NCBI GenBank assembly: GCA_016762995.1
Contig: JAESUT010000221.1
Location: 1-14,258 of the forward strand
Length of the DNA: 14,258 bases
Source: Gammaproteobacteria bacterium
Lineage (GTDB): Bacteria > Pseudomonadota > Gammaproteobacteria > Pseudomonadales > Pseudohongiellaceae
Direction of reading: 5' to 3'
Below the pieces are notes generated by a model, which saw nothing but the letters and a program-made list of their open reading frames with translations, was not told where the DNA came from and did no database searches. A program made the position numbers and the translations under genes. Of the stretch, positions 4,434 to 9,968 are shown in pieces. The first letter of the stretch is position 1. Every line of letters begins with the position of its first letter.

Positions 4434-5303
4434 ATGAATATCAAAAAGCTAGCCACCACATGTCTACTGCTGAGCGGAATCAGTGCTGCAGCTACCGTTC
4501 TGGCTCAAAATGATCGATTCGCAAATGTAACTATCGAGACTGTGCCGGTAACTGGCAATATCTCGATGTTGGTTGGATCAGGTGGCAACATTGGTGTGTC
4601 AACAGGTGTTGATGGCATATTGATCATCGATGATCAGTACGCGCCTTTGGCGGCAAAAATCCGTGCAGCTCTTGCGCAATTAGGCTCCGATACGCCGAAG
4701 TTTCTTCTCAATACACACTTTCATGGCGACCACACCGGTGGTAATGCAGACTTCGGTGCGGCGAGTATCATCATCGCTCATGAGAACGTGCGCGGCAGGT
4801 TAGTAGCTGCAGATTCGCCGAGTACAGCTTTACCGGTAATCACCTTCGATGATGATGTCACTGTTCATTTTAATGGCGAGAACATTACGTTGATCCACAT
4901 GCCAAGAGGCCACACCGATACCGATAGTGTCGTGATGTTTGAAGACAGCAACGTCATCCATATGGGTGACCATTTTTTCAATGGTGGCTTTCCCTTCGTC
5001 GACCTAGCTAGCGGTGGCACCGTTCAAGGTTATGTTATTAACTTGGAAAAGGCGCTGTCGTGGATAGACGATGACACGTCGGTGATCCCAGGTCATGGAC
5101 CGCTAGGCACGAAAGCCGATCTGCTAGCTTTTTACAACGTGGTGAAAGACACATCGACGACTATTCGTGTGATGAAATCACAAGGTGTGAGTGTAGAAGA
5201 GGCTGTCGCTGAGGGCTTGGGCGGCGAATACGAATCTTGGGGGCAGGGGTTCATCAACGAACAGCGTTGGATAGAAACTGTCTATGCAAGTTATCCTCGA
5301 TAA
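4434..5303 (+). CDS. Exported metallo-beta-lactamase-fold hydrolase
   Basis: This 289-residue protein has a signal peptide: KK near the N-terminus, a hydrophobic stretch, and a likely cleavage at VLA-Q (24/25), so it probably acts in the periplasm. The dinuclear zinc site of the superfamily is complete: H95-F-H97-G-D99-H100, then His160 in PRGHTDTD, Asp179 in MGDHFF and His221 in IPGHGP. The layout is that of the broad MBL-fold group that includes SoxH-like and quinoprotein-relay proteins, and class B beta-lactamases share it too. The substrate cannot be inferred; a true beta-lactamase is possible but not the default reading. The start follows a strong TGGAGGA at 5-base spacing. The next gene on the strand encodes a peptidoglycan-type peptidase 77 bp later, with a hairpin between them. 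Confidence 0.88.
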   Translation: MNIKKLATTCLLLSGISAAATVLAQNDRFANVTIETVPVTGNISMLVGSGGNIGVSTGVDGILIIDDQYAPLAAKIRAALAQLGSDTPKFLLNTHFHGDHTGGNADFGAASIIIAHENVRGRLVAADSPSTALPVITFDDDVTVHFNGENITLIHMPRGHTDTDSVVMFEDSNVIHMGDHFFNGGFPFVDLASGGTVQGYVINLEKALSWIDDDTSVIPGHGPLGTKADLLAFYNVVKDTSTTIRVMKSQGVSVEEAVAEGLGGEYESWGQGFINEQRWIETVYASYPR

Positions 5304-7035: not shown

Positions 7036-7055
7036 CTAGTTGCAATGCACATCGA

Positions 7056-7091
7056 GGGAAATCTCTGAGCGTACTTAGAGATTTCCCTTTT
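7056..7091 (+). terminator. Rho-independent terminator after the hpf-DUF1244 block
   Basis: GGGAAATCTCT (7056-7066) pairs perfectly with AGAGATTTCCC (7077-7087). Three further pairs (one of them G-T) extend the stem to 14 bp around a CGTA loop. TTTT follows at 7088-7091. It begins 20 bases after the DUF1244 stop. It also faces the convergent CDGSH-GltS gene ending at 7173, but the plus-strand T-run is the better one. Confidence 0.9.
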
Positions 7092-7172: not shown

Positions 7173-8735
7173 TCAAGGAAGCAGTTCTAGCCCCGAATAT
7201 TTGACGCCAGATAGCATCCCCATTTCTCTATGCCAGGTAGCCAAATCATTTTTATTGAATTTACTTAGATCATCATGGCCGCAGGCTCTAGACATAACCT
7301 GCATTAGTTCAACCGATGCTTCAAAAAAATTCTTCAACTGCATTGCGGATTTTTTTACATTGAGTCGTTGGCGTAAATCTGCCTTCTGTGTGGCGATACC
7401 TGCAGGACAATTGTTAGTGTTGCACATACGCGCTGCTACACAGCCTATAGACTGCATGGCACTGTTAGAGATAGCCACGCCATCTGCTCCTAATGCCAAT
7501 GCCTTTACAAAATCCATAGGCATTCGCAATCCGCCAGTTATAATTAGCGTGACCCGACCGCTGGCACCTTGCTCGTCTAGATACCTGCGTGCTCTTGCTA
7601 GTGCTGGAATAGTTGGCACGCTTATATGGTCTCTGAACATTTCTGGCGCGGCACCTGTGCCGCCGCCGCGGCCATCCAATATTATATAATCGGCACTAGC
7701 ATCAAGCGCGAATTGAATATCCGCTTCAATATGATTGGCACTCAGTTTGAAGCCAATGGGAATACCGCCGGTAATTTCTCTTACACGATCGGCAAAGCGG
7801 TTAAAATCACTTGCCGTGTTTAGGTCTTTAAACGTAGGCGGTGATATCGCCGGCTCGCCCTCGGGAATACCCCGCACCTGGGAAATTTTCCCGGTGTTTT
7901 TATTGCCCGGCAGATGACCGCCCGTGCCCGTCTTTGCACCTTGCCCTCCTTTAAAGTGGAACGCCTGCACATTTTCTAGAAGAGATTCGCGATACCCAAA
8001 CTGGGCGCTTGCCAGCTCATACAGATAGCGTGAATTTGCCTCCCGCTCCTCGGGCAGCATGCCTCCCTCACCGCTGCAAATACCTGTGCCAGCAAGTTCC
8101 GCCCCCATTGCAAGGGCTATCTTCGCTTCTTCCGACAACGCACCGAAACTCATGTCAGAGACAAATAAAGGAATCTTCAGCCTGAGTGGCTTCTTTGATT
8201 CTGGGCCAATGACGAGTTCAGTGGCAACCGGTGCATCTTCGAACAAAGGTTTTGTTGCCATTTGAGCCGTCATGATTTGCAGGTCATCCCAGTGCGGCAA
8301 TTTGTGACGCGGCACTCCCATTGAGGTCATGGGGCCATGATGCCCCATCTGTGTTAAGCCCTCACGAGCTAATTGATGTATGAACTCAACCGTTGGCTCT
8401 TCTTGAGTCGCGATAGCAACGGGCGCGCCGGAATCGCTAGCTTGAATACCCGGACCCTCTTTACCAACATCTTCTGCCTTAAATTTTTTATGTGTGCCAT
8501 CACAATACGGTGTATTGCTGGAATGCTTACAATTACAAAGATAAGCATCACCTTCCTCCTTTGCCGTGAAGCTTTTTGGAGTGAAGTTTGTTCCTTTATG
8601 TGAGCCATCACAAAAAGGCTGGTTGTTTGACCGCCCGCACATGCAATAGTAATTTTTTTCTCCTTCTTTCAAGGAGACTTTAACTGGCTTGTTATCCGCC
8701 ACTATGGGTTTACTTGCTGCTTGGGATTCACTCAT
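7173..8735 (-). CDS. Twin-CDGSH / FMN-dependent glutamate synthase domain fusion protein
   Basis: The 520-residue protein joins two iron-sulfur modules to a GOGAT-type domain. CDGSH domain 1 has ligands C31, C33, C42 and H46 (YYCMCGRSNNQPFCDGSHKG). Domain 2 has C67, C69, C78 and H82 (YLCNCKHSSNTPYCDGTHKK). Each should hold a [2Fe-2S] cluster. After a linker (about 85-115), residues 160-500 form the FMN-binding (beta/alpha)8 domain of glutamate synthase: VSDMSFGALSEEAK, KGGQGAKTGTGGHLPG, DGRGGGTGAAP. The [3Fe-4S] cysteines sit at C432, C438 and C443 in C-x5-C-x4-C spacing. The glutaminase and C-terminal beta-helix domains of GltB are absent, as in archaeal-type stand-alone GltS. No gltD partner is near. 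It is cytoplasmic. ATG 8735 has only a weak TGGAA upstream. Its true substrate is unknown. Confidence 0.92.
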   Translation of the reverse strand: MSESQAASKPIVADNKPVKVSLKEGEKNYYCMCGRSNNQPFCDGSHKGTNFTPKSFTAKEEGDAYLCNCKHSSNTPYCDGTHKKFKAEDVGKEGPGIQASDSGAPVAIATQEEPTVEFIHQLAREGLTQMGHHGPMTSMGVPRHKLPHWDDLQIMTAQMATKPLFEDAPVATELVIGPESKKPLRLKIPLFVSDMSFGALSEEAKIALAMGAELAGTGICSGEGGMLPEEREANSRYLYELASAQFGYRESLLENVQAFHFKGGQGAKTGTGGHLPGNKNTGKISQVRGIPEGEPAISPPTFKDLNTASDFNRFADRVREITGGIPIGFKLSANHIEADIQFALDASADYIILDGRGGGTGAAPEMFRDHISVPTIPALARARRYLDEQGASGRVTLIITGGLRMPMDFVKALALGADGVAISNSAMQSIGCVAARMCNTNNCPAGIATQKADLRQRLNVKKSAMQLKNFFEASVELMQVMSRACGHDDLSKFNKNDLATWHREMGMLSGVKYSGLELLP

Positions 8736-8972: not shown

Positions 8973-9968
8973 CTACGTCTTCTCCGCTAGAAATAGCTTA
9001 TTGCGAACCAAGCTACGGTACTCTACCGGCGTTACAGTGGTTGCCTTCTTAAATAGGCTAGTGAAATAACTCGCATCCTGATAGCCGACCATATCGGCAA
9101 CTTCGGATACTGCGAGGTTACTCTGCTTTAACAACTCTTGGGCATGTTCGATTCTAAGGTTCTGTAAGTACTGCAGTGGTGAAGTATTGGTCGCGAGTTT
9201 GAATCGGCGGTTTAAGGACCGTACGCTGAGCTTAAACCTCTCCGCTAGGGCGCTTATAACCACGTCGGCTTGGTAGTTTTGGTCAAGCCACTCCTGTACC
9301 TTTATTATCTCTTCATCATGGTGACTACGCTGCTGATCTTCATTGAGGAGCAAGGATTCATAGGAGCGTTTCAACTCGTGGGTAAATTGCCGCGCTATTT
9401 CGCCGGCAATCGATTCGCCATACAGTTGCTCCACAAAATACAACATGATGTCGCGAAATGCGTTGATGCTGCCGGTGCAATAGAGTTTTTCATCGCTGGT
9501 GATGAAGCGTTTGCGCTGTAATTTTATGTCGGGGTAGCGCTCAATAAATTCATCAAAGAAACGCCAGTGGGTGGTAGCAGATTTGCCTTGAAGTAGGCCG
9601 GCCTCAGCGAGAAAAAAACTGCCGGTCACGATCGAGCAGAGTGTGCTACCGGCCGTGTGCTGCTGTACAAGCCAATTCATCATGGGCTTTAGTTTGAGGA
9701 GTGAGGATCTGGGGTTTCCCCAAATGCCTGGTACAAAGATAAGATCGCTGCTTATTATGCCGTCTAGCGTGGTCTGACAACTGATGCGCATGCCGCCACT
9801 GAGTGTAAGTTCGGTAGAGTCAGTGCCTGACGCCAATTCAATCGTAACGAGTTTGTCGAGTTGCCGTCTGGACCTTGCAATATCGTTAGCGGCACTCAGC
9901 ATCTCTAAGGGGATAGTAACGGTCGATCCCAGTGCCTTAGGTACGGCGATTATGGTTACGTGTTTCAT
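8973..9968 (-). CDS. GlxA-family transcriptional regulator (DJ-1/PfpI-like + AraC HTH)
   Basis: This 331-residue regulator has an N-terminal DJ-1/PfpI-like domain (about 1-190). Cys111 in STLCSIVTGSFFLAEAGLL sits where the class I amidotransferase-like nucleophile lies; these domains usually sense ligands and do not act as enzymes. The AraC/XylS DNA-binding domain occupies about 225-325: ALAERFKLSVRSLNRRFK is the first helix-turn-helix, and VADMVGYQDASYFTSLFKK the second, with the typical GY.d.SyF..lFKk signature. The ligand is unknown; known relatives govern amino acid, betaine or carnitine use. The ATG 9968 lies 26 bp after greB, so it may be the last gene of the serA-serC-dinB-greB run. 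It precedes the CDGSH-GltS gene by 237 bp on the same strand, which makes that gene a plausible target. Confidence 0.9.
   Translation of the reverse strand: MKHVTIIAVPKALGSTVTIPLEMLSAANDIARSRRQLDKLVTIELASGTDSTELTLSGGMRISCQTTLDGIISSDLIFVPGIWGNPRSSLLKLKPMMNWLVQQHTAGSTLCSIVTGSFFLAEAGLLQGKSATTHWRFFDEFIERYPDIKLQRKRFITSDEKLYCTGSINAFRDIMLYFVEQLYGESIAGEIARQFTHELKRSYESLLLNEDQQRSHHDEEIIKVQEWLDQNYQADVVISALAERFKLSVRSLNRRFKLATNTSPLQYLQNLRIEHAQELLKQSNLAVSEVADMVGYQDASYFTSLFKKATTVTPVEYRSLVRNKLFLAEKT

Follow-up and report, generated by a model that had tools for sequence, protein, structure and literature searches.

What does a pair of CDGSH iron-sulphur domains do in front of the flavin mononucleotide (FMN) domain of glutamate synthase? 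The question is raised by one gene in a stretch of 14,258 nucleotides, referred to here as the window, from a gammaproteobacterium of the Pseudohongiellaceae (contig JAESUT010000221.1 of assembly GCA_016762995.1). The gene product belongs to the proteins known as type 5 CISD. The architecture itself is already known and the new part is comparative, in that comparison of the sequences shows that the CDGSH pair holds a slot which other one-electron carriers, namely Rieske and rubredoxin domains, also fill. The parts of the gene are as follows.

7173..8735, minus strand: type-5 CISD gene, encoding tandem CDGSH domains and a Glu_synthase FMN/[3Fe-4S] domain (520 residues, ATG start; from the open reading frame, Pfam and the literature)
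8598..8648, minus strand: CDGSH motif 1, residues 30-46, ligands C31/C33/C42/H46 (alignment and fit to the 17-residue consensus)
8490..8540, minus strand: CDGSH motif 2, residues 66-82, ligands C67/C69/C78/H82 (alignment and fit to the 17-residue consensus)
8220..8408, minus strand: linker, residues 110-172, common to the Rieske form and holding M139-G140 (alignment)
7278..8216, minus strand: Glu_synthase FMN domain, residues 174-486 (Pfam and fold matches)
7407..7442, minus strand: [3Fe-4S] ligand segment, residues 432-443, ligands C432/C438/C443 (alignment)

The cofactor sites and the domain order are established at the level of the amino acid sequence. Pfam assigns zf-CDGSH to two stretches (E 1.5e-18) and Glu_synthase (PF01645) to residues 174-486 (E 6.2e-95), with a weaker match to FMN_dh. 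These assignments and the alignments bear out the fusion that an initial annotation had read from the DNA, and all the 11 ligand positions that it had named for the two CDGSH clusters and the [3Fe-4S] cluster of the glutamate synthase type are correct. None of the 11 varies across alignment A1 (the window protein and 66 relatives, 55-81% identical). All 11 are also present in 139 of 143 collected rows, which were gathered by having at least one CDGSH motif, so that complete loss of CDGSH lies outside the count. Of the four exceptions, L053 has an ambiguous base, L145 and L156 are truncated genes, and the last is a different protein, the fusion of locus L034 described below; among type-5 rows proper the figure is 139 of 142. 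The same annotation had counted a loss of FMN-binding residues as evidence against its reading; the core residues of the FMN domain are kept, as is its barrel fold according to the fold matches. M139-G140 corresponds to the 'SMG' (Met479) loop of glutamate synthase (GltS), which is thought to gate transfer between the [3Fe-4S] cluster and FMN (PMC8097209). None of the PDB chains among the fold matches listed spans both the CDGSH and the FMN parts, which does not in itself point to a new fold.

The closest relatives without CDGSH align with the window protein from about residue 110 on (60-70% identical), and in them a Rieske motif precedes the core. The Pfam Rieske match is found in the close Rieske forms L157, L163 and L165, falls below the cut-off in L160, which is cut at its start, and is found also in L170, L172, L213 and L216. 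The Rieske ligands C45, H47, C64 and H67 are invariant in all 13 rows of alignment A2. A more distant group (L206-L210, 39.7-42.1% identity) has rubredoxin in all five members tested, with two copies in L209, and Pfam finds no carrier domain at the N-terminus of L173, L174 and L175. One genome (G048) encodes a CDGSH form (L118) and a Rieske form (L169) together.

Two trees have been compared. Tree 1 comprises 96 rows, with the CDGSH rows thinned from 143 to 70 at 86% identity, and without L145, L155 and short cores; tree 2 comprises 58 rows, among them 24 of the 70 CDGSH rows of tree 1, and omits L052, L160 and L216/L217, the last two being identical with the genes L204/L205. In both, the rubredoxin and the distant Rieske forms fall outside a strongly supported clade of CDGSH and close Rieske forms, with the caveat of long branches at the base. 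A single clade of all Rieske rows is rejected by the approximately unbiased (AU) test (p 0.0009), so the Rieske domain was acquired at least twice. A single clade of all CDGSH rows is compatible with the data (AU p 0.225). Tree 2 nests the close Rieske clade in the CDGSH rows, but this p value and tree 1 leave the order open, and the view that the CDGSH rows are paraphyletic, with Rieske having replaced CDGSH, has not been adopted.

Because Rieske or rubredoxin takes the same N-terminal place, a relay is the best reading of the CDGSH pair, and we consider it very probable. As far as searches of the open-licence PubMed Central (PMC) literature show, the Rieske/rubredoxin exchange, the kept Met479 loop and the gene neighbours in part of the family are novel.

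At locus L034 the gene before the type-5 gene (L034:5683-7929, P0121) encodes a 748-residue fusion of tandem CDGSH, Rieske and thiamine pyrophosphate (TPP) enzyme domains. Its best PDB match is PoxB of E. coli (E 1.3e-68), a quinone-linked flavoenzyme, and the CDGSH parts of the fusion and of the adjoining type-5 protein share 76% identity, the highest value of 67 compared. The same CDGSH carrier part would thus be at work in another kind of oxidoreductase as well. Residues 1-210 of the fusion, used as a query, gave 1150 matches at E <= 1e-30, type-5 proteins included; among the matches listed many proteins have the CDGSH, Rieske and TPP architecture, one of them from a eukaryote collection, and versions with an extra Fer4_19 domain are of 868-882 residues. 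Proteins of 576-587 residues with CDGSH, Fer2, Rieske and nucleotide cyclase (PF00211) domains were also seen (P0193, P0196, P0197 and P0198), possibly a redox-controlled cyclase.

CDGSH (NEET) proteins are of importance to iron and redox biology, and a physiological electron-carrier role of the domain is disputed. The interchange of CDGSH, Rieske and rubredoxin on one enzyme core makes the carrier question directly testable in one purified protein, and would give a reaction to a family of thousands that is now called 'glutamate synthase-related' in databases, probably wrongly.

The window protein is an ordinary member of this known, uncharacterised family. The name type 5 CISD was given by Lin et al. 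(2011) to proteins in which a glutamate-synthase FMN domain follows tandem CDGSH motifs, listed at that time in 32 bacterial species including Vibrio splendidus (PMC3174974). In the window protein 19 residues separate the motifs, where about 20 are described for type 5, the C-terminal domain is PF01645, and no difference from the type as set out in the sections of that paper considered here has been found. Those sections give no reaction and no Rieske or rubredoxin forms (PMC3174974). The class II set of CDGSH with Glu_synthase/FMN_dh of Sengupta et al. (2018), reported from proteobacteria and some cyanobacteria, has the same domains, and its description is phylogenetic only in the part considered (PMC5859297). 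Related fusions, expected by the initial annotation, thus exist under this name and in thousands of relatives: the window protein has at least 8000 database matches, all with E <= 1e-10, and all of the 120 listed have both Pfam domains. In samples of 369 genomes from the class and 398 from the phylum, matches were found in 72 (E <= 1e-60) and 51 (E <= 1e-80) respectively, counts that take in forms without CDGSH. Neither a biochemical study of a type-5 CISD nor a characterisation of one as an ordinary GltS has been found in searches of the open-licence PMC literature. Two listed relatives (P0207 and P0234) carry the automatic label N-methylglutamate synthase subunit C (MgsC).

On balance, the window protein would be a free-standing oxidoreductase with FMN and [3Fe-4S], built on the GltS synthase domain, in which the tandem CDGSH serves as a one-electron port; it would probably be a dehydrogenase from which electrons leave through CDGSH. 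A substrate would be oxidised (or reduced) at FMN, two electrons per step; the electrons would pass singly from FMN to the [3Fe-4S] cluster past the Met139 loop, and from there through the CDGSH [2Fe-2S] clusters to a quinone or some external partner. The place of the CDGSH pair would be that taken in GltS by the clusters of the beta subunit or ferredoxin. With such an outward flow the protein would be a dehydrogenase like flavocytochrome b2, although that enzyme and the other FMN enzymes oxidising 2-hydroxy acids have heme as carrier and no [3Fe-4S] cluster, and the window protein is only 13-19% identical to the fold-match rows of this group. Fusions of Fer4 with GltS are known in archaea.

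A net flow outwards, from FMN to CDGSH, by analogy the downhill direction, appears rather probable because the clusters of mitoNEET lie at about 0 mV, taking electrons from reduced flavin and giving them to coenzyme Q (PMC8615162, PMC9737848), whereas in GltS the potential of FMN (oxidised/hydroquinone) is -240 mV and that of the [3Fe-4S] cluster is -280 mV, or -190 mV with 2-oxoglutarate (PMC8097209). CDGSH [2Fe-2S] clusters are a feature of mitoNEET and a predicted one of the type-5 protein; mitoNEET is a single-motif dimeric membrane protein that acts with free flavin, whereas the type-5 protein is a fusion.

For a quinone/electrophile or oxidative-stress job in part of the family, the window lying outside the evidence, we see an even chance. 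Genes for pirin, glutathionyl-hydroquinone reductase (GHQR), cytochrome b561 or YceI occur within four genes at 19 of 114 type-5 loci (788 gene slots), and at five to eight genes at 3 of the 114 (521 gene slots). Taken separately within four genes, pirin is found at 12 loci, GHQR at 12, cytochrome b561 at 7 and YceI at 6. The 114 loci are 119 less a duplicate (L136) and four whose target was lost by the open reading frame caller (L054, L068, L073 and L083). The 114 genomes contain about 100 pirin sites and 41 GHQR sites in all, which gives chance expectations of about 0.26 and 0.10 loci if about 2,700 genes per genome are assumed. The typical order is a divergent LysR gene, then pirin, GHQR, cytochrome b561, YceI and type 5 (L128, with variants in L032, L043, L008 and L140), and in L045 there are 4-nt overlaps between successive genes of the series GHQR, type 5 and pirin. 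Pirin, YqjG/GHQR and YceI have been named by PDB matches (the GHQR neighbour is YqjG-like, E 5e-119), and cytochrome b561 and old yellow enzyme (OYE) by Pfam; the best NCBIfam model for the OYE of L056 is NemA, below its cut-off (366 against 403 bits).

Rieske forms are found in like clusters, so that carriers were exchanged on genes set in a similar neighbourhood. The cluster of L212 has cytochrome b561, YceI, pirin, a nitroreductase-like gene and the Rieske form; that of L213 has the Rieske form and an MsrA-like gene and, across a LysR gene, cytochrome b561, YceI, nitroreductase-like, OYE-like, GHQR, pirin and CDGSH protein genes (the MsrA, nitroreductase and OYE names at the two loci were given by eye). 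A conserved operon at every locus has been rejected, most type-5 loci being without a recurrent neighbour. Tentatively, the whole may be an FMN/[3Fe-4S] dehydrogenase family with a plug-in outlet, CDGSH, Rieske or rubredoxin having been swapped repeatedly on one core, in which CDGSH is a catalytic relay and part of the family works in a quinone/electrophile stress operon (LysR, pirin, GHQR, NemA, cytochrome b561, YceI).

Several points weigh against an outward electron port and its stress role. The potentials belong to other proteins, and a shifted FMN potential would undo the argument on direction; CDGSH elsewhere also acts in cluster transfer and sensing. The AlphaFold2 model of the window protein (mean predicted local distance difference test (pLDDT) score 88.2, predicted template modelling score 0.82) gives no distance between the clusters and FMN; a model of the Rieske form (mean pLDDT 67.0) has been set aside. 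The loci behind the chance expectations are phylogenetically non-independent, and only 2 of 24 Rieske loci searched by tblastn (22 distinct genes) have any of the four neighbour families. These families are absent at 95 of the 114 type-5 loci, the window included; the genome of the window has two pirin genes, both elsewhere, and no GHQR was found in it at E <= 1e-40.

Among the other explanations, the CDGSH pair may be a redox or pH sensor, or a module for cluster donation or repair, that regulates the FMN domain off the electron path, and such roles have been described for mitoNEET (PMC9737848). Rubredoxin and Rieske domains, however, take the CDGSH place, and rubredoxin cannot serve as the donor of an Fe-S cluster; nearly all type-5 rows, as counted above, moreover keep both sets of CDGSH ligands, though according to Lin et al. 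one of the motifs is degenerate in 17% of the pooled type 5 and type 6 proteins (PMC3174974). A regulatory pair is improbable, and of the two roles between which the initial annotation had hesitated, the built-in relay gains strong indirect support from the Rieske and rubredoxin forms and the redox sensor is weakened. A reductive enzyme is unlikely, if less so; here a cellular reductase would load CDGSH and the electrons would run through [3Fe-4S] to FMN for reductive amination or imine reduction, as in an ammonia-dependent synthase of glutamate or another amino acid. Its electrons would take the direction of those of GltS (PMC8097209), but carriers with a potential close to 0 mV would reduce an FMN near -240 mV only poorly, and no conserved adjoining reductase gene is seen among the 114 type-5 loci. 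The protein has E223, K262, Q265, K268 and R288 in common with the GltB of its own genome, which we take to be the counterparts of GltS E903, K966, Q969, K972 and R992; yet H335, E337, D339 and R356, invariant in the type-5 family, differ in GltB. That genome encodes a complete-looking GltBD elsewhere, namely a full gltB (C162, 1518-residue frame) and just after it a gltD-like gene (C162:9721-11124), which scores 328.7 bits against TIGR01318, short of that model's cut-off of 482.95. Ordinary GltS is therefore unlikely and has been rejected as the leading reading, and ammonia-dependent glutamate synthesis, listed first by the initial annotation among several possible reactions, loses ground as the leading one. 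GltB and ferredoxin-dependent GltS have in common with the window protein the FMN/[3Fe-4S] synthase domain, the Met479 loop and the counterparts of the core residues. Unlike them, it lacks the N-terminal amidotransferase (glutaminase) domain, the C-terminal beta-helix and the greater part of the central domain, and its carrier is fused at the N-terminus. The absence of a glutaminase domain and of a GltD-type reductase, which the initial annotation had remarked, agrees with Pfam and with a window that has no GltD gene. The residue at the position of Synechocystis E1013, which serves in coupling to the glutaminase, is Ser309 in the window protein and variable in A1, with Glu in 6 of 67 rows.

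Direct reduction of quinones, nitro- or other electrophilic compounds by FMN or CDGSH is also improbable, at nearly the grade of the regulatory pair. The GHQR, pirin, YceI, NemA-like OYE, nitroreductase and cytochrome b561 neighbours in part of the family argue for it, and YhaJ, a LysR regulator of E. coli that responds to hydroquinone, controls the pirin-like gene yhaK (PMC5031710). Such neighbours are however missing at most loci, as stated, the fold is that of a family of FMN enzymes with carboxylate substrates (GltS, lactate and glycolate oxidases), and none of the NCBIfam regulator models listed is matched by the LysR proteins above its cut-off. The LysR genes are not claimed as orthologues of YhaJ; for the two proteins scanned the best NCBIfam model is YafC (244-248 bits, cut-off 470).

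Three further features were identified around the gene.

8973-9968, minus strand: GlxA/FtrA-like regulator (DJ-1_PfpI and AraC helix-turn-helix), upstream of the type-5 gene, 237 bases apart
4434-5303, plus strand: metallo-beta-lactamase-fold protein, about 1.9 kb from the type-5 gene
7054-7089, plus strand: terminator-like hairpin (16 pairs) where the DUF1244 and type-5 genes converge, between the former and the 3' end of the latter

The AraC-type regulator has been dropped as a partner, members of its cluster occurring within four genes at 4 of the 114 type-5 loci and in scattered positions. Terminator-like sites in the region are no commoner than in shuffles (2 found, mean 2.4). Metallo-beta-lactamase-fold genes are present also in the type-5 clusters of L118 (6706-7605) and L132 (4782-5774). 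No other CDGSH protein was found in the genome of the window, which has pieces of a further Glu_synthase gene at two contig ends (C33, 8061-8777, and C130, 7347-7568), probably one gene split by the assembly. A 730-residue OsmC and YcaO protein (L062:5686-7878) is encoded directly upstream of type-5 genes in Marinobacter, with the same cluster in L065 and L070. Proteins with Fer4_19 and CDGSH domains (L056:9648-10280 by Pfam; L132:3759-4394 and L213:15016-15654 by eye) are encoded beside or within type-5 or Rieske-form clusters and are candidate redox partners.
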